In this document: positions 26,187-34,660 of the stretch, piece by piece
How the letters are laid out: each line of letters starts with the position of its first letter
Position numbering within the stretch: the first letter of the stretch is position 1
Position numbers and translations under genes: made by a program
The notes under the pieces: model-generated
The model's database searches: none
What the model was told of the DNA's origin: nothing
The model's input: only the letters and a program-made list of their open reading frames with translations
DNA from: Bacteroidota bacterium
GTDB lineage: Bacteria; Bacteroidota; Bacteroidia; Bacteroidales; Prolixibacteraceae
Assembly: GCA_023251435.1 (NCBI GenBank)
Contig: JAHEYU010000063.1
Location: forward strand, 1-34,660
Reading direction: 5' to 3'
Length of the DNA: 34,660 nt

Positions 26187-27662
26187 CTAGATAATCGCTT
26201 CCATTGCTTCCATGGCTTCGCGCAATTCTTCACCAATCAATTCAACTTCGTGGTAACGTATTTGTTCGTTAATTTTAACCAGTTCGATATTATCAACATG
26301 ATTGTCGATTCCTTCATTGAAATTCTTGCCAATCACTTTGATGTCGATCTTTTTCATGAAATCGGCCAATAGCGGTTTACAGGCGTGATCGAATAAATAA
26401 CAGCCATATTCAGCCGTGTCAGAAATTACACGGTTCATTTCGAACAGTTTTTTGCGTGCAATTGTGTTGGCAATCAGTGGAGTTTCGTGCAACGATTCGT
26501 AGTAAGCAGATTCTGCTTTTATGCCAGTTTCAGTCATTACTTCAAAAGCCAATTCAACACCAGCTTTTACGAAAGCCACCATCAAGGTACCATTGTCAAA
26601 ATATTCCTGTTCGCTGATTTTCATATCTCCGGCCGGAGTTTTCTCGAAAGCAGTTTCGCCAGTTGCAGCTCTCCAGGCAAGCAGGTTTTTGTCACCGGCT
26701 TTCCAGTCTTCCATCATAGTTGACGAGAATACACCCGACATGATGTTGTCCATGTGTTTTTCGAACAATGGACGCATAATTACTTTCAATTCACCAGCCA
26801 ATTTGAAAGCTTCGATTTTGGCAGGGTTCGACAGACGATCCATCATGTTGGTAATACCGCCCAATTTCAAGGCTTCGGTAGTTACTTCCCAACCGTACTG
26901 AATAAATTTAGAAGCGTAGGCAGGATCAATTCCCTTTTCAACCATTTTATTGAACATCAGAATGGAAGCCGACTGCAGCACACCACAAAGAATGGTTTGC
27001 TCGCCCATCAAGTCTGATTTTACTTCAGCAACAAACGATGAATGCAATACACCAGCTTTGTGACCACCTGTTCCGGCGCAATATGCTTTGGCTATTTCGA
27101 GACCATCGCCATTGGGATCGTTTTCGCGGTGAACAGCAATTAGGGTTGGAACGCCAAATCCACGGAGAAATTCAGCACGAACTTCAGAAGCAGGAGATTT
27201 TGGAGCAACCATAATCACAGTTAAGTCCGGACGAATCTGAATACCTTCTTCAACAATATTGAAACCATGTGAATACGACAGACAAGCACCTTTTTTCATT
27301 AAAGGCATAGCTGCATTCACCACTGGTGTATGGTATTTATCCGGAGTAAGGTTTAAAACCAAGTCAGCCGTTGGAATCATTTCTTCGAAAGTACCTACTT
27401 TAAATCCGTTGTCGGTTGCATTTACATACGAAACGTGTTTTTCAGAAATTTCAACTGCACGTAATGCATACGAAATATCTAATCCACTGTCGCGCATGTT
27501 CAACCCTTGAGCCAGGCCCTGAGCACCACAGCCCAATACAACAATTTTTTTACCGGTTAATTTATTTACACCGTCAGAAAATTCTGACTGATCCATAAAG
27601 TCACATTTGCCCAATTGTTCTAACTGAACACGCAGTGGGATTGAATTAAAATAATTTGCCAT
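26187..27662 (-). CDS. ilvC: Ketol-acid reductoisomerase, long (class II, E. coli-like) form
   Basis: A 491-residue cytosolic enzyme that isomerises and reduces acetolactate or acetohydroxybutyrate with NADPH and Mg2+, the second common step of Val, Ile and Leu synthesis. It closely follows the E. coli-type sequence: [20 protein letters not shown], the Rossmann motif [18 protein letters not shown] (44-61), SYALR for cofactor choice, LTPDKYH, and duplicated knotted C-terminal domains. The length of 491, against about 330-350 for class I, fixes the class. It is the last gene of the ilv cluster, 200 bp after an inserted araC-type gene, and is followed by a strong terminator. No clear separate promoter was found in that spacer. 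Confidence 0.98.
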
Positions 27663-27862: not shown

Positions 27863-28768
27863 CTACCCCGAAGACAGAGAACGATACTGAAGCGGAGATA
27901 ATTTTGTTTCGCGCCTGAAGAACTTCGAAAAATACGATTGATCGTCGAAATGCAGCAGAGCTGCAATTTCATTAATATTCAGGTTGGTATGTACCAATAG
28001 CCTCTTAATTTCAAGTATTTGCTTCATTTTAATTACCTGAATAGATGTTTTTCCGGTGAATTGTTTCACTGTTTGTGTGAGGTGGTTGGGCGTTACAAGC
28101 AGCAATGCGGCATAATCGGCCAACGACAGGTTTTTTAGGTAATTTTCTTCGACCAATTGATAAAACCGTTTCACCAGAATCTGTCCCTTGCCTTTGCTGA
28201 CGCTGCTTTCAATGGTTTTATAGCGTGAAGAGCAGGTAGTTAAAATCAAATCCAGAATGGAGCGCAGCATTTCCAGGGTAAAATCTCCGGTTTGGCGGGT
28301 TTCGGCAATACTTTGCCTGAACAAGCTTTCCAGAAAACGAATATCATTTTCATTTTCGAGTGGTAATGGCGGATTATCCTGATGAATGGTGTAAAAGAAT
28401 GGAAATTCAATCAGACTGTTCTGATTACTTCTGTTGAGCAGGTAAAAATCGGCAGTGAAGATGAAAATGTAACCTTCGATGTCGTTCGAAAGTTCCAGTT
28501 TGTGCGCCTGTCCGGGCGACATAAAGAAAACGCAGGGCGGTTTTATTTCGTATTTATTGCTGTCAATAACATGGTAACCAGAGCCTTTCAGCAAATAAAG
28601 AACTTCAAAAAAATCGTGCCGGTGTGGATACTTCACGCTGAAATGCCGGTTAGCATCAAATACTTCCACCTGAAATTGCTGACTTTTCCGTTCAGGAGAA
28701 CTGAAATTATGCAGGCTGTAAACCGGAATTTGTTCTGAAGGCTGTTTCATCAACGAATTATTTACCAT
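27863..28768 (-). CDS. AraC-family transcriptional regulator inside the ilv cluster
   Basis: A 301-residue DNA-binding protein. The N-terminal cupin-type ligand domain (about 40-130) includes YPHRHDFFEVLYLLKGSGYHVIDS and PCVFFMSPGQAHKLEL. The C-terminal double helix-turn-helix (about 205-298) includes NLSLADYAALLLVTPNHLTQTVK and LNINEIAALLHFDDQSYFSKFFRRETKLSPLQYR. Met7 (28750) may be the true start, because the first six codons lie in a repeat-like AT-rich stretch. It sits between ilvN and ilvC on the same strand, 82 bp after ilvN. Whether it senses a pathway metabolite or is an unrelated insertion cannot be told from sequence; in Bacteroides an acyl-ACP thioesterase gene often occupies this position, as I recall. 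Confidence 0.92.
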   Translation of the reverse strand: MVNNSLMKQPSEQIPVYSLHNFSSPERKSQQFQVEVFDANRHFSVKYPHRHDFFEVLYLLKGSGYHVIDSNKYEIKPPCVFFMSPGQAHKLELSNDIEGYIFIFTADFYLLNRSNQNSLIEFPFFYTIHQDNPPLPLENENDIRFLESLFRQSIAETRQTGDFTLEMLRSILDLILTTCSSRYKTIESSVSKGKGQILVKRFYQLVEENYLKNLSLADYAALLLVTPNHLTQTVKQFTGKTSIQVIKMKQILEIKRLLVHTNLNINEIAALLHFDDQSYFSKFFRRETKLSPLQYRSLSSG

Positions 28769-28850: not shown

Positions 28851-29393
28851 CTAATCTACCTGTTCGAGCAAAGCATCCCGCTCTTTCAGGAATTCAGATA
28901 ATTTCTCGATCGAACTTCGGGTAATGGCCACCCTTCCTGAACGGTTGAACTGGGTTACTCCAAATTCATTCAACTCATCAAAAAGCTGTTGAGTTTCGTT
29001 GGTATGTCCGGTTTTTTCGATCACCACGTATTCACGGGTAATTTCCAAAATACGGGCACCCGACTTGCGGACTATTTGTTCAACTTTATCCGATTCGAAA
29101 AGCTCTTCGATTGGTACTTTGTACAAAGCAATTTCCTGGCAAATCATCTCTTCGTTGGTATTGAAATATGCCTTCATAACATCGACAACCTTTTCGAGCT
29201 GACCAACCACCTTTTGAACACGGTCAAGTGTTTCCTTAATCACAATCGTAAACTTGAAGATTCCGGGAATCGCTGATGCCGATACAGTTAAGCTATCGAT
29301 ATTGATTTTTCTCCGGGTAAAAATAATGGTGATTCTGCTAAGCAATCCAATGTGATCTTCAGAAAAAACGGTGATAATATATTCTTGTTTCAT
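28851..29393 (-). CDS. ilvN: Acetolactate synthase small (regulatory) subunit
   Basis: A 180-residue ACT-domain protein that binds and activates the large subunit and usually confers feedback inhibition by valine. The ACT domain lies at about 3-75 (EYIITVFSEDHIGLLSRITI, NIDSLTVSASAIPGIFKFTI). A C-terminal ALS_ss_C-type region follows (about 80-175, with QEIALYKVP and ARILEITREYVVIEKTG). The length is slightly more than the E. coli IlvH type. It lies downstream of ilvB after a 269-bp spacer that carries repeat sequence, which is unusual because ilvB and ilvN are normally close together. Confidence 0.96.
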   Translation of the reverse strand: MKQEYIITVFSEDHIGLLSRITIIFTRRKINIDSLTVSASAIPGIFKFTIVIKETLDRVQKVVGQLEKVVDVMKAYFNTNEEMICQEIALYKVPIEELFESDKVEQIVRKSGARILEITREYVVIEKTGHTNETQQLFDELNEFGVTQFNRSGRVAITRSSIEKLSEFLKERDALLEQVD

Positions 29394-29662: not shown

Positions 29663-31360
29663 TTACGGTTCCAATAAAATATCGGATACTGATGCGCCGG
29701 TTGGTACCATCGGGAAAACATTGTCTTCCTTTTCGACTACTACCTCGAGAACGAATGGGCCTTTGTGATCGAGCATTGCCTGAACAGCATCTTCCAACTG
29801 ATCGCGCGAGGTTACCTTCTGAGAGGCCAGCCCGTAAGCTTTTGCAATTCCCACAAAATCAGGATTCTTCATTTCGGTGAACGAATACCTTTTTTCAAAG
29901 AACAACTGTTGCCATTGGCGCACCATTCCGAGAAAATTATTATTCAGCACAATTATCTTAATATCAAGACCATATTGCGCGATAGTTCCTAATTCCTGAA
30001 TGGTCATCTGGAAACCGCCATCACCAGCAACTGCGAATACTACGCGATCGGGCTGGCCGATTTTAGCTCCCATCGAAGCCGGAAGTGCATATCCCATTGT
30101 TCCCAAACCGCCTGAAGTTACATTGCTACGCGTCCGGCTAAATTTAAAGTAGCGGGATGCAATCATTTGGTGCTGACCAACATCCGTAACAAGAACCGCC
30201 TCATTATTTGTTTTTTCAGAAGCAATGCGAATTACTTCGCCCATGGTTAGGCCCACTTTATTGGGATGAATATCGTGAGAAATTACCTTCTCATATTCAA
30301 TTTTATCGCAATCGCGGAATTCCTGAAGCCATGCGTCATGAGAGTTTTGGTTGACATTGCCAATCAACATCCGAAGCGATTTCTTGGCACTTCCCAAAAC
30401 AGGAACATCTGCTTTAATGATTTTATTGATTTCTGCAGGGTCGATTTCCAAATGAATGACTTTTGCCTGACGTGCGTACGCAGCTACTTTTCCGGTCACG
30501 CGGTCGTCAAAACGCATTCCGACAGCAATTATTACATCGGCTTCGTTGGTTTTGATGTTAGGACCATAATTTCCGTGCATTCCCAGCATTCCCACATTCA
30601 GCCGATGGTCTGACGGAAGAGCAGAAAGTCCCAGCAATGTCCAGGCTGCAGGAATGCCTGTTTTTTCGATAAATTCTTTTAACTCCTCTTCTGCATGGCC
30701 CAAAATAACGCCGTGTCCAATTAGAATCAAAGGTTTTTTGGCCTCGTTGATAATATCGGCGGCAGCTTTTACCTGAAACGGATCGACAGGATATTCAGGT
30801 AAATAACTTCTTATTTTGGTGCATTTTTTATATTCAAAATCAAAAAGGCCGAATTGGGCATCTTTTGAAATATCAAGCAAAACAGGCCCCGGACGACCGC
30901 TGGTGGCAATATGAAAAGCCTTCGCAATGGCTTCCGGAATTTCTTCGGCACTGGTTACCTGATAGTTCCATTTAGTCACCGGTAGAGTGATACTAATCAC
31001 ATCAGATTCCTGAAAAGCATCGGTACCTAGCAGCGGAGAAGCCACCTGACCGGTAATACAAACCAATGGAATAGAATCAATCTGCGCATCGGCCAAACCA
31101 GTGATCAGGTTGGTTGCCCCCGGACCTGAAGTAGCAAAACAAACTCCGGCCTTTCCGGTAACATTTGCATAACCCTCAGCTGCATGAATTGCACCCTGTT
31201 CGTGCCGTGTAAGGTAATGCGTGACCTGTTGGTCGAAATCGTACAATGCATCGTAAATGGGCATAATTGCCCCTCCCGGATACCCGAAAATGGTATCAAC
31301 CCCTTCTTCCAGAAGTGATAAGATTACAGCCTGTGAGCCGCTTACTCTTTTTGTTGCCAT
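29663..31360 (-). CDS. ilvB: Acetolactate synthase large (catalytic) subunit
   Basis: A 565-residue thiamine-diphosphate enzyme that condenses pyruvate with pyruvate or 2-ketobutyrate. The N-terminal Pyr domain has IFGYPGGAIMPIYDALYDF and the catalytic Glu54 (HEQGAIHAAEGYA), followed by SGPGATNLITGLADAQIDS. The central domain has WTLLGLSALPSDHRLNVGML. The C-terminal ThDP-binding motif is GDGGFQMTIQELGTIAQYGL ... LNNNFLGMVRQWQ. It matches the biosynthetic AHAS type, since ilvN is adjacent. It lies 218 bp after ilvD, with an AT-rich direct-repeat spacer between. Confidence 0.98.
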   Translation of the reverse strand: MATKRVSGSQAVILSLLEEGVDTIFGYPGGAIMPIYDALYDFDQQVTHYLTRHEQGAIHAAEGYANVTGKAGVCFATSGPGATNLITGLADAQIDSIPLVCITGQVASPLLGTDAFQESDVISITLPVTKWNYQVTSAEEIPEAIAKAFHIATSGRPGPVLLDISKDAQFGLFDFEYKKCTKIRSYLPEYPVDPFQVKAAADIINEAKKPLILIGHGVILGHAEEELKEFIEKTGIPAAWTLLGLSALPSDHRLNVGMLGMHGNYGPNIKTNEADVIIAVGMRFDDRVTGKVAAYARQAKVIHLEIDPAEINKIIKADVPVLGSAKKSLRMLIGNVNQNSHDAWLQEFRDCDKIEYEKVISHDIHPNKVGLTMGEVIRIASEKTNNEAVLVTDVGQHQMIASRYFKFSRTRSNVTSGGLGTMGYALPASMGAKIGQPDRVVFAVAGDGGFQMTIQELGTIAQYGLDIKIIVLNNNFLGMVRQWQQLFFEKRYSFTEMKNPDFVGIAKAYGLASQKVTSRDQLEDAVQAMLDHKGPFVLEVVVEKEDNVFPMVPTGASVSDILLEP

Positions 31361-31411: not shown

Positions 31412-31579
31412 TATAATGATTTACTATTTGACGATTTACTATTTACTATTAAAATCGAACGATCATCGTCAATCGTAAATGAATAAATCGTAAATATTCC
31501 CTGTTTGAATTTACGATTAGACGATTTACGCTGAAACGAGCGAATAAAATGGTCAATCGTAAATGAATAAATAGTAAAT
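31412..31579. repeat. AT-rich direct repeats between ilvD and ilvB
   Basis: A 28-bp sequence starting GTCAATCGTAAATGAATAAA occurs at 31468-31495 and again at 31552-31579 with one mismatch. Shorter related words (ATTTACTATTTAC, GACGATTTACTATTTACTAT, TTTACGATTAGACGATTTAC) lie around them, some inverted. The same word family recurs at 28770-28850 between ilvN and the araC gene. The remaining part of the 218-bp spacer has no other recognisable feature. Confidence 0.75.
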
Positions 31580-33408
31580 TATTCTATAATCCTTATTGCA
31601 CCGCGATCGGCTGAAGAAACCATGCTTGCATAGGCTTTCAGGGCTTTGCTCACCATCCGGTTGCGTGGCGCTGGCATGAAAGCGTCTTTTCCTTTGCTGA
31701 TTTCCTTTTCCCGGCGTGCTGCCAATTCTTCGTCGCTTAAGAGCACTTCTATTTTACGCGAAACAATGTCAATTTCAATCAAATCGCCATCCTTAATCAA
31801 TCCGATTTCGCCACCTGCAGCAGCTTCCGGAGACACATGGCCGATGGATAAACCTGAAGTTCCGCCAGAAAAACGTCCATCGGTAATTAACGCACAAGCT
31901 TTGCCAAGTCCCATCGATTTAATGTAAGAAGTTGGGTACAACATTTCCTGCATTCCAGGTCCACCTTTCGGCCCTTCATAAATTATCACAACCACATCGC
32001 CTGCCTGTACTTTGTCGCCAAGAATTCCATTGCATGCATCGTCCTGCGATTGGAATACCCTGGCAGTTCCTTTAAAATGATAGACTGAAGGATCGACTCC
32101 GGCAGTTTTTACGATGCAGCCATTCCGTGCAATATTGCCGTAAAGAACAGCCAGACCACCATCTTTGCTGTAAGCATGTTCATAGTTGCGAATACAACCA
32201 TTTTCACGATCGGTATCCAACTCCTTGTAATAATTTTCCTGTGAGCCCATTACCAAATTGCGGCCTCCACCCGGTGCCGATTTATATCTCCGAATAGCAT
32301 CTTCTGTAACAGTCGGCGCCACCACATCGTATTCGGCAAGGGCTTCAGCCAAGGTGCGCCCGTCGGCACGTGGAACAGTAATATCGAGCATTTTTGCACG
32401 ATCGAGCTCTGCCAAAATTCCCAAAATTCCACCGGCACGATTCACATCTTCCATGTGATAACTGCCGCTTGGTGCTACTTTGCAAAGGTTTGGAGTTACC
32501 CGCGATAATTCGTCAATATCTTTCATGGTAAAATCAACTTCACCTTCAGAAGCAATGGCCAAAATATGCAATACCGTGTTTGTTGAACCACCCATTGCAA
32601 TATCCAGTTTCATCGCATTTTCGAAAGCAGCTTTGGTGGCAATATTTCTGGGTAAAACCTTTTCATTGCCATTTTTATAATGGTCATAAGTCATTTCAAC
32701 AATGCGGGCAGCAGCTTCGTCGAACAGGCGCTTGCGGTTGGCGTGCGTTGCGAGAATAGAGCCATTTCCCGGAAGTGCGAGACCAAGCGCTTCGGCCAGG
32801 CAGTTCATCGAGTTGGCAGTAAACATTCCGGAGCATGAACCGCAGGTCGGGCAGGCATCACGTTCCACTTTCGACATTTGTTCATCGGAAACCGAGCTGT
32901 CGGCAGCCATGACCATCGCGTCAACCAAATCGTACATTTTACCATCAATCTTGCCGGCTTCCATCGGGCCGCCCGAGACGAATATGACAGGAATATTAAG
33001 GCGCATGGCGGCCATCATCATTCCGGGAGTAATTTTATCGCAGTTCGAAATGCAAACCATCGCATCAGCACGATGTGCATTGATCATGTATTCCACGCTA
33101 TCGGCAATCACATCGCGCGAAGGCAGCGAATACAGCATACCATCGTGACCCATTGCAATACCATCGTCAACGGCTATGGTGTTGAACTCGGCGGCAAAAC
33201 AGCCTTGTTTCTCGATTATACCTTTTATATACTGGCCAATATCGTGCAAATGAACATGGCCGGGCACAAACTGTGTGAACGAATTTACAATGGCAATTAC
33301 CGGCCTTCCAAAATGTTCTTCCTTCATGCCGTTAGCTCTCCAAAGGCTTCTTGCCCCAGCCATTCGCCGTCCTTCTGTTGTAGTTGCTGATCTTAATCGT
33401 TTTTGCAT
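31579..33408 (-). CDS. ilvD: Dihydroxy-acid dehydratase
   Basis: A 609-residue iron-sulfur enzyme that dehydrates dihydroxy acids to the 2-keto acids of Val and Ile, the third common step. It follows the IlvD/Edd family closely: [20 protein letters not shown], the Fe-S cysteines in [13 protein letters not shown] and [60 protein letters not shown], and [20 protein letters not shown]. Length is typical. It is the first structural gene of the operon. Its ATG lies 30 nt after the U-run of the attenuator terminator, so its transcription depends on antitermination. Confidence 0.98.
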
Positions 33409-33437: not shown

Positions 33438-33475
33438 AAAAAAAAGCCTTTCTCATCTGATTGAGAAAGGCTTTT
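33438..33475 (-). terminator. Attenuator terminator before ilvD
   Basis: AAAAGCCTTTCTC (minus strand, 33475-33463) pairs perfectly over 13 bp with GAGAAAGGCTTTT (33454-33442), around an 8-nt loop (33462-33455). The transcript then has a T-run of eight (33445-33438, partly in the stem). It sits between the leader peptide and ilvD. It is the off-state structure of the attenuator. Confidence 0.95.
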
Positions 33476-33511
33476 AAGTCTTATAGCTTACATTATACCA
33501 TTCTCAATCAG
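33457..33511 (-). promoter_or_regulatory. Antiterminator pairing of the ilv attenuator
   Basis: CTGATTGAGAA (minus strand, 33511-33501), which overlaps the leader stop codon, is the exact reverse complement of TTCTCAATCAG (33467-33457). The second segment covers the end of the 5' arm and most of the loop of the terminator. The 11-bp pairing therefore excludes the terminator stem. When a ribosome completes the leader it covers 33511-33501 and the terminator forms; when it stalls upstream the antiterminator can form. Confidence 0.88.
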
Positions 33512-33569
33512 CACGAAGGAGGACCACCACGCTAATAATGACTAGAGATATAATGCTGATATTTTTCAT
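33504..33569 (-). CDS. ilv leader peptide (attenuator)
   Basis: A 21-residue peptide with ATG at 33569 and TGA at 33506-33504: MKNISIISLVIISVVVLL, then Arg-Ala-Asp. Twelve of 21 residues are Ile, Leu or Val, including a run of five consecutive Val/Leu codons (GTG GTG GTC CTC CTT). It lies between a promoter-like sequence and the antiterminator/terminator pair in front of ilvD. Known ilv attenuators work by ribosome stalling on such codons when the cognate charged tRNAs are scarce. The gene is too short for ordinary gene finders. I found it because the stop codon sits inside the antiterminator arm. Confidence 0.93.
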   Translation of the reverse strand: MKNISIISLVIISVVVLLRAD

Positions 33570-33591
33570 TTTGTGCTTCTGTTTATGGCGA

Positions 33592-33621
33592 CAAATGTAG
33601 AAATTAATTTGAACTTCCAAA
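33592..33621 (-). promoter_or_regulatory. Promoter of the ilv leader
   Basis: A TACATTTG box (33599-33592) matches the Bacteroidota -7 consensus TAnnTTTG. A TTTG (-33 box, 33621-33618) lies 18 nt upstream, against the usual 19-21. Transcription would start near 33585, giving a leader of about 15-20 nt before the leader-peptide ATG. Confidence 0.7.
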
Positions 33622-33720: not shown

Positions 33721-34660
33721 TTACTTTGGTAATCCAAAATAAAATACCGAGCCTTTCCCTACTTCACTCTCCACTTTTACCCAACCATTATGAGCTTCTA
33801 TTATCTTTTTAACAATGGCCAAACCGAGTCCGGTTGATTTTTCGCTTGCAGTAGCCTTCACCGAGGTGGTTTGAAAAGGATTAAATAATTTCTGTAGTTC
33901 TTCTGCCGGAATTCCCTGTCCATGGTCAATTATTTTGGTAACGATTTGTTCGTCATTATCCGAAATATCAATCACTATTTTTGTATTGGGGAACGAATAT
34001 TTAATGGCATTGCTCAACAGATTATTTAACACCTGCTGGATTTTATTCCGATCGAAACTGGCCATGATGCTGCTACTATCGGTTTTAATAATTATCTCCT
34101 GCGATTTATTTCTTGCCAGTATTTCTTCGTGAACAATACTTTTTTTAACAAAAGAAAGGTATTCCAACTCACTGACATTCAACTCAAATATGCCTGCCTC
34201 AATTTTTGAGGTATCTAAAAAATCGCGGATAAGGTTCAATGAAAAATCACAACTGGCGTTGATGTGCCCCAAATATTCAAGTTGCGTCTCTTTGGGTATC
34301 GTATCGAAATCATCAATTAAAATTTCAGAAAAAGAACCTGCCACGCCGATTGGATTTCTCAAATCGTGCGCGACCATTCCTATGTACCTGTTTTTCTCTA
34401 TATTCAGCTCCGAAAGCCGGGAGTTCGCTTTTTCAATTTCAGCGGTACGGGCTTTCACTTTCGCCTCCAGATTTTGATTGGCTTCCTGCAGGCTGGCCAT
34501 CAATTTCCGGTTATTAGTAATCAACTCGTATTTTTCAAAAGCCTCGCGGATAATGGTTTCCAATTCATCCGGATTCCAGGGTTTTTTAACATACCTGAAA
34601 ACCTGTCCTTCGTTTATAGCCCCAATAACAGCTTCAATATCGCTGTATCCGGTCAGGATA
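33721..34660 (-). CDS. Hybrid response-regulator/histidine kinase (5' end cut by window edge)
   Basis: The frame is open to the right edge, so the N-terminus is missing (312 residues seen). The first residues, ILTGYSDIEAVIGAINEG and QVFRYVKKPWNPDEL, are the end of a receiver (REC) domain, with the switch Thr/Ser region and the conserved Lys-Pro-Trp. A coiled coil follows (LQEANQNLEAKVKARTAEIE), then a HisKA dimerisation domain with His in MVAHDLRNPIGV. The HATPase_c domain has N box NKIQQVLNNLLSNAIKYS, G1 DHGQGIP and G2 GLGLAIVKKI. It autophosphorylates on His and passes phosphate on; the REC domain at its N-terminus suggests it is itself controlled by another kinase. A TTG at 34563 is not the real start. 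It ends about 100 bp upstream of the ilv promoter on the same strand. Confidence 0.93.
   Translation of the reverse strand, partial: ILTGYSDIEAVIGAINEGQVFRYVKKPWNPDELETIIREAFEKYELITNNRKLMASLQEANQNLEAKVKARTAEIEKANSRLSELNIEKNRYIGMVAHDLRNPIGVAGSFSEILIDDFDTIPKETQLEYLGHINASCDFSLNLIRDFLDTSKIEAGIFELNVSELEYLSFVKKSIVHEEILARNKSQEIIIKTDSSSIMASFDRNKIQQVLNNLLSNAIKYSFPNTKIVIDISDNDEQIVTKIIDHGQGIPAEELQKLFNPFQTTSVKATASEKSTGLGLAIVKKIIEAHNGWVKVESEVGKGSVFYFGLPK

Follow-up and report, generated by a model that had tools for sequence, protein, structure and literature searches.

The window, a 34,660-nucleotide stretch of contig JAHEYU010000063.1 (assembly GCA_023251435.1) from a member of the Prolixibacteraceae, carries on its minus strand the genes for dihydroxy-acid dehydratase (ilvD, 31579–33408), the large and small subunits of acetolactate synthase (ilvB, 29663–31360; ilvN, 28851–29393), an AraC-family regulator (27863–28768) and ketol-acid reductoisomerase (ilvC, 26187–27662), in that order. 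Because these genes are separated by ~80 to 270 nt, their co-transcription is only assumed. The AraC-family gene between ilvN and ilvC represents a possible second control layer for the ilv genes. Upstream of ilvD and on the same strand lies an ORF (33721–34563) that appears histidine-kinase-like by eye, and the region between the two contains a promoter match, a short leader ORF and an intrinsic terminator, from which a first-pass annotation had proposed a complete transcription attenuator.

Leader, pairing arms and terminator upstream of ilvD

The promoter match consists of TTTG at 33618–33621 (−33 element), 18 nt from TACATTTG at 33592–33599 (−7 element, TAnnTTTG), an arrangement that fits the Bacteroidota promoter consensus. 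A sigma-70 scan of the ilvD strand in the window returned no promoter match. Among the loci collected from relatives, 79 of 87 first units have TAnnTTTG in the 90 nt that precede the leader, compared with 7.7 expected from shuffled sequences and 10 on the opposite strand.

The leader ORF, MKNISIISLVIISVVVLLRAD, occupies 33504–33569 on the minus strand and is unannotated and conserved in relatives. Its ATG (33569) lies 22 nt past TACATTTG, and its 21 codons, of which 12 specify branched-chain residues (five Ile, three Leu and four Val), are followed by a TGA at 33506–33504. Codons 14–18 (GTG GTG GTC CTC CTT; 33516–33530) are the last control codons and encode Val-Val-Val-Leu-Leu, the final five residues ahead of the switch point. 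The peptide has no match in Pfam; its only NCBIfam match is to NF007744, the ilv operon leader peptide, at 16.3 bits (E = 0.0049) and below the curated cut-off of 59 bits, and is a resemblance in sequence, not membership.

Three further segments complete the locus. Arm 1, AUUAGCGUGG (33527–33536), can pair in the minimum free energy (MFE) fold with 33516–33507, including part of arm 2. Arm 2, CTGATTGAGAA (33501–33511), holds the TGA of the leader, and its target in arm 3 is TTCTCAATCAG (33457–33467), of which 6 nt fall within the 5' arm of the terminator and 5 nt within its loop. The terminator itself (33442–33475) has a 14-bp stem and a 6-nt loop, and its U-run of eight T (33438–33445) overlaps the 3' end of the stem, leaving a gap of 29 nt to the ilvD ATG at 33408. 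A terminator scan identified one terminator-like site, against 0.1 expected from shuffles. The promoter, the leader with its 12 Ile/Leu/Val codons and the stop-codon arm all lie at the minus-strand positions given to them by the first-pass annotation, and 33511–33501 is, as it claimed, the exact complement of 33467–33457. Two of its details require amendment: the terminator and its U-run are present with a stem one pair longer than the 13 bp described, and the antiterminator arm is exact over 11 nt, as described, within a duplex (−21.2 kcal/mol) that runs on across one mismatch to 14 pairs.

Folding of the minus-strand leader, which the same annotation had suggested, gave −43.2 kcal/mol for the 150-nt RNA, far better than shuffled versions (−26.3 ± 3.4 kcal/mol; z = −5.05; 0 of 200 as good). 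The MFE fold of the complete leader RNA combines the 1:2 hairpin with the 3:4 terminator.

Conservation and covariation among relatives

Upstream regions of ilvD were scanned for an Ile/Leu/Val-rich ORF ending at most 110 nt from an intrinsic-terminator-like hairpin. IlvD was found at E 1e-150 in 49 of 61 genomes of relatives, and 48 loci were taken, with G058 left out; from the named contigs, L033 and L034 were dropped as duplicates of L020 and L016, and only known duplicates were removed. All 21 testable genus loci, that of the window among them, have a leader followed by a terminator (a 22nd lacked the length needed by the scanner), as do 13 of 14 loci in the rest of the family and 14 of 16 in the other families, or 27 of 30 in the order outside the genus. 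The first-pass annotation had staked its reading on conservation in close relatives, and extensive conservation is what these loci display. Among named contigs, where phylum labels are those of record titles, 34 of 55 Bacteroidota loci have the pair, and it is absent from all 22 scannable loci whose titles name other phyla (a 23rd was not long enough), in a set drawn from the best 80 of at least 595 loci. When the same scanner was run on 3,180 dinucleotide-shuffled versions of these upstream regions, it returned no leader and terminator.

When arm-2 pairing near the stop codon is added as a filter, 18 loci remain in the genus, 13 in the rest of the family, 14 in other families, 33 among the named Bacteroidota and none in other phyla. 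The three genus loci failing the filter are L015, L016 and L020. The leader stop codon usually overlaps arm 2 in relatives, as it does in the window. Of the 21 named Bacteroidota loci without a scanner match, seven are titled Prevotella or Prevotellaceae, and four (L046, L049, L072 and L083) have a visible leader-like ORF and no terminator that passed; the same is true of L122 and L123, two of the three misses among the 30 loci from the rest of the order.

Sampling beyond the order was wider and shallower. A phylum-wide IlvD search at E 1e-120 matched 1 of 198 genomes, that of the window, since the IlvD of other orders is distant. A class-wide search at E 1e-30 matched 39 of 149 genomes; of the 38 besides that of the window, 34 supplied loci, and G331, G343, G101 and G281, which gave weak matches only, were left out. 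Of the 31 loci from other orders of the class, seven satisfy the loose scan and two the arm-2 filter. Three of those seven (L191, L192 and L196) share a longer conserved small ORF and were not regarded as attenuators; these three and L084, which has odd terminators, were dropped from the permutation, codon and stall analyses and kept in the distribution counts. The arrangement that the first-pass annotation read as ilv attenuation in Bacteroidota is no isolated oddity: it is widespread in the order, and peptide attenuation in the phylum had been mentioned earlier.

The coding content of the leaders appears to be constrained as well. Across 19 genus leaders of the same length, window included, each change in an Ile/Leu/Val codon stays within Ile/Leu/Val. 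Valine is encoded by GTC in 50% of 308 cases in 73 leaders versus 9% of 483 cases in 13 genes of the window; for leucine, CTA accounts for 20% in leaders versus 4% in these genes, and CTC for 21% versus 8%. No such preference for rare codons is seen for isoleucine (ATA, 8% in leaders versus 13% in genes). As the leaders were collected from many genomes and the genes all belong to a single one, the comparison is indicative only. Control codons seldom used in genes would heighten the sensitivity of stalling.

The Ile/Leu/Val codons of the leader are thus kept in relatives and the terminator stems covary, two features that the first-pass annotation had asked to be looked for upstream of ilvD in related genomes. 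The alignment used for the stems covers the segment from leader end to U-run in 46 of 71 candidate segments, hand-picked for spread, and within this segment only the arms are well conserved. Eleven of the 12 terminator pairs have changed on both sides, with 45 doubly changed cells compared with 11.2 in shuffles (0 of 500), and terminator pairing, 92.7% in register, drops to at most 66.4% once the partner is slid by 1 to 3 columns. Arm 3 deviates from its common 8-mer in 30 cases; pairing with arm 2 is retained in 28 of these, pairing with arm 4 in 26 and both pairings in 24, counts that lean upward because arm 2 was picked as the best match. Arm 2 is also specific for its own arm 3: the mean duplex energy is −14.6 kcal/mol for arms of the same unit versus −10.7 ± 0.31 kcal/mol when permuted among units (0 of 5,000 permutations). 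This permutation used 74 of 97 units, dropping most of the genus of the window and the four doubtful loci. A unit's own arm 3 is the best partner in 10 of 74 units and within the top tenth in 41 of 74, and many arms are alike.

Predicted response to ribosome position

The fold of the window RNA was predicted from the leading edge of a ribosome, assumed to lie 12 nt beyond the first base of the A-site codon, to the position immediately preceding arm 4. The 2:3 pairing has a probability of 0.89–0.99 whichever Ile/Leu/Val codon occupies the A site. Stalls at codons 14–18 give 0.94–0.99 for the portion of arm 2 left uncovered; at codons 17 and 18 the ribosome already hides some of arm 2, and the predicted fold is weaker. 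In the folding model, a ribosome between codon 20 and the stop fully masks arm 2 and leaves arm 3 free for the terminator. In ribosome-free RNA before the synthesis of arm 4, 2:3 is favoured (P 0.96), and the complete RNA instead adopts 1:2 and the terminator; therefore, a protector hairpin for the untranslated state is not clear. Across relatives, 91 of 92 units have a mean 2:3 probability above 0.5 over Ile/Leu/Val stalls, and in 87 of 92 the probability is less than 0.1 once the ribosome has reached the stop, a result that is partly circular because arm 2 was chosen as the best complement. As modelled, these fold changes are the logic of classical ribosome-mediated attenuation.

The computed parts, their order, conservation and covariation, the preference of arm 2 for the arm 3 of its own unit and the predicted shift in fold with ribosome position support the attenuator reading of the first-pass annotation. 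The locus is very probably a ribosome-mediated transcription attenuator for ilvD, and probably also for ilvB, ilvN, the araC-like gene and ilvC. We infer that RNA polymerase starts a few bases past 33592 and that a ribosome translates the 21-codon leader close behind it. A scarcity of charged Ile-, Val- or Leu-tRNA would stall this ribosome within codons 4–18, freeing arm 2 to pair with the emerging arm 3, blocking the terminator and allowing transcription of the ilv genes. With plentiful amino acids, the ribosome would reach the UGA inside arm 2 and cover that arm, so that arm 3 would pair with arm 4 and transcription would end near 33438.

Several other readings of the locus can be weighed against this evidence. 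The hairpin might be a mere terminator of the upstream gene at 33721–34563, with the leader a chance hydrophobic frame. That ORF does end ~245 nt ahead of the hairpin, but the promoter match and the conserved leader intervene, and the leader composition, the placement of the stop within arm 2 and the specificity of the arm2:arm3 pairing recur across families, with no leader and terminator arising in any of the 3,180 shuffles; such an origin is very unlikely. It is still harder to credit that the ORF is there for its product, a functional small membrane peptide, with the RNA structures secondary. The hydrophobicity of the leader and its conservation within the genus would fit such a peptide; across families, however, sequence and length drift while Ile/Leu/Val richness stays, the leaders favour GTC, CTA and CTC, and counterparts at leu and his operons carry Leu and His runs. 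The peptide also lacks a Pfam match, and its sole, sub-threshold NCBIfam match is to a leader peptide of an ilv operon.

Control of the same terminator by another RNA sensor, such as a T-box or one with a metabolite or protein ligand, has some precedent, as T-boxes or riboswitches and leader peptides are described in a passage of Naville and Gautheret (2010) as swapping at the same genes in other groups. Yet neither the window nor the loci of 18 relatives yield an Rfam match at gathering score, the 17 weak Rfam matches at E up to 10 include no T-box, and conservation between leader end and U-run is concentrated in the arms that the attenuator would use. There is accordingly only a slight chance that a sensor of this kind operates here. 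Ribosome-mediated attenuation remains the preferred reading, and its recurrence suggests, at the level of sequence, that related bacteria regulate their ilv genes by ribosome stalling much like E. coli.

Tandem units, other operons and known systems

The window itself contains one attenuator unit. Two leader and terminator units in series are present at seven of 89 scanner-positive ilv loci (L024, L025, L026, L069, L074, L077 and L115), and in five of the seven the units are spaced ~20 nt apart. Four tandem loci have a complete TTG-TAnnTTTG promoter match ahead of unit 1, and none has one ahead of unit 2. TAnnTTTG on its own occurs in L077, 82 nt upstream of unit 1, and in L026, 71 nt upstream of unit 2. 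Comparison of the genus with the tandem loci of its family reveals that the genus leader and arm 2 (of the GAGAATGG type) resemble those of unit 1 and that the genus terminator (CCTTTCTC) resembles that of unit 2. All 19 scored units of the leader type found in the window have an internal mismatch in the 2:3 duplex, and the tandem members G005 and G036 adjoin the 21-row genus clade in the IlvD tree, where the fork is drawn open. The genus switch might therefore be hypothesized to be a fusion of two tandem units. Against such a fusion, the duplexes of L025 unit 1 and of L028 are also interrupted, some genus loops resemble the unit 1 loop of G005 and others its unit 2 loop, and G016, inside the clade, has a unit-2-like leader only, at a point where its contig ends. 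Fusion is kept as a hypothesis because the loop sequences give mixed signals.

Leaders are also found at other amino-acid operons of the same genome. The leuA gene is preceded by the leader MTGFNNISLLGLIIGILLIWMHD, a TTGAGAATGG arm and a matching terminator. The leuA loci L148–L157 (L150 among them) carry a Leu/Ile-rich leader and a terminator, apart from the tenth locus, L153, at which no leader passes; arm-2 pairing is strong in six of the nine units scored and weak in L148, L156 and L157. The TTGAGAATGG arm resembles the ilvD arm, and so the leu and ilv switches may share an origin. Upstream of hisG lie MNNSITHYGHHHVFLSAGRQ and a terminator, and His-rich leaders occur at eight of nine hisG loci (L139–L147, L143 among them), with moderate arm-2 pairing (z −1.6 to −2.9). 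In their predicted peptides, the leuA and hisG leaders of this genome carry control residues that match their operons.

At trpE, two Trp-rich leaders (MIQNTNTIWLPWWG... and ...NIWWWH...), each with a terminator, are arranged in series in this genome (L214, 973–1247). The pair is seen in four genomes of the genus, that of the window included (G000, G001, G003 and G006; loci L213, L215 and L217 besides L214), and in G000 and G003 the unit 1 terminator passes the scan. Pairing of unit 1 with its own arm is predicted at the two loci scored (z −2.8 and −4.0), and no arm 2 was found for unit 2 at five genus loci (z −0.5 to 0.2). Of eight trpE loci in all, one is cut by a contig end and one is without a leader. 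A candidate thrA attenuator was rejected, as the terminator upstream of thrA and the Thr-rich frame of one relative (L234) seem, on visual inspection, to be the end of the gene before it, which is recA-like. Beyond the site in the window, a pattern search of the genome for similar terminators returned only palindromes of the CCCTTCTCC...GGAG(A)AGGGG type, four of them on contig C125 (L135–L138) and others on C2, C17 and C100 (L131, L132 and L134).

A broader proposal, on balance slightly more doubtful than not, is that Bacteroidales regulate several amino-acid pathways by stalling attenuators, some of them in series behind one promoter (ilv in seven relatives and trpE in four genus genomes), and that the switch in the window is a chimaera of a collapsed tandem pair, in which unit 1 supplied the leader and arm 2 and unit 2 the terminator. 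Tandem units could reveal the origin and collapse of serial attenuators. The conservation of the attenuators is itself indirect evidence for transcription-translation coupling, since a ribosome must follow RNA polymerase closely for the mechanism to work. This hint concerns a group, the Bacteroidia, whose ribosomes are reported in a passage of PMC9976891 not to recognise Shine-Dalgarno sequences; if the broader proposal is true, the phylum would need tight coupling despite that report. The leaders also point to small genes that annotation may miss.

According to Naville and Gautheret (2010), no leader peptides had then been demonstrated beyond the Proteobacteria and Actinobacteria. A passage on Bacteroides thetaiotaomicron 5' UTRs mentions short ORFs that recall leader peptides, and an excerpt of PMC4833913 counts short leader genes near structural genes in Bacteroidetes, with attenuator anatomy not part of that account. 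Among the matches listed from open-access full-text literature, no Bacteroidales ilv attenuator is described. Work by Vitreschak from 2004 reportedly mentions Bacteroidetes/Chlorobi. The widespread Bacteroidales set adds a phylum with clear attenuator anatomy and short, testable switches.

The closest known counterpart is the E. coli ilvXGMEDA (ilvGMEDA) operon with its leader peptide IlvL, in which an Ile/Leu/Val-rich leader, a G+C-rich hairpin and a T-run likewise precede the ilv genes; unlike E. coli, the window has ilvD first, a shorter leader and a promoter of the Bacteroidota type. The segment ISLVVISVVVII of IlvL and ISLVIISVVVLL of the window leader share 9 of 12 residues and 14 identical nucleotides (window 33551–33516 versus L238 844–879). 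Of 20,000 shuffled leaders, 15 reach 9 of 12 against IlvL, and the collected leaders score from 4 to 9. This likeness is probably convergence, preferred over a transfer of the leader from enterobacteria because the window DNA has no match in E. coli genomes and the relatives carry graded sequences.

Branched-chain attenuation outside Proteobacteria has been described, as excerpted, for Corynebacterium glutamicum ilvBNC, Staphylococcus aureus and Listeria, all in other phyla and likened here by description. Within the same phylum, a 2021 paper on Flavobacterium psychrophilum (PMC9723704) reports strong clues of leader-peptide attenuation upstream of amino-acid operons; this organism belongs to the Flavobacteriales, however, and the passage concerned names no ilv operon or anatomy. 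The tandem ilv units of the seven relatives recall Salmonella mgtCBR, whose leader is said in a passage of PMC3641672 to contain two attenuators, each controlled by an ORF. The mgtCBR attenuators sense ATP and proline, whereas both tandem ilv leaders are rich in Ile/Leu/Val. Taken together, the sequence comparisons strongly support the presence of the classical mechanism in a less-described phylum, extended in relatives by tandem, perhaps fused, variants.
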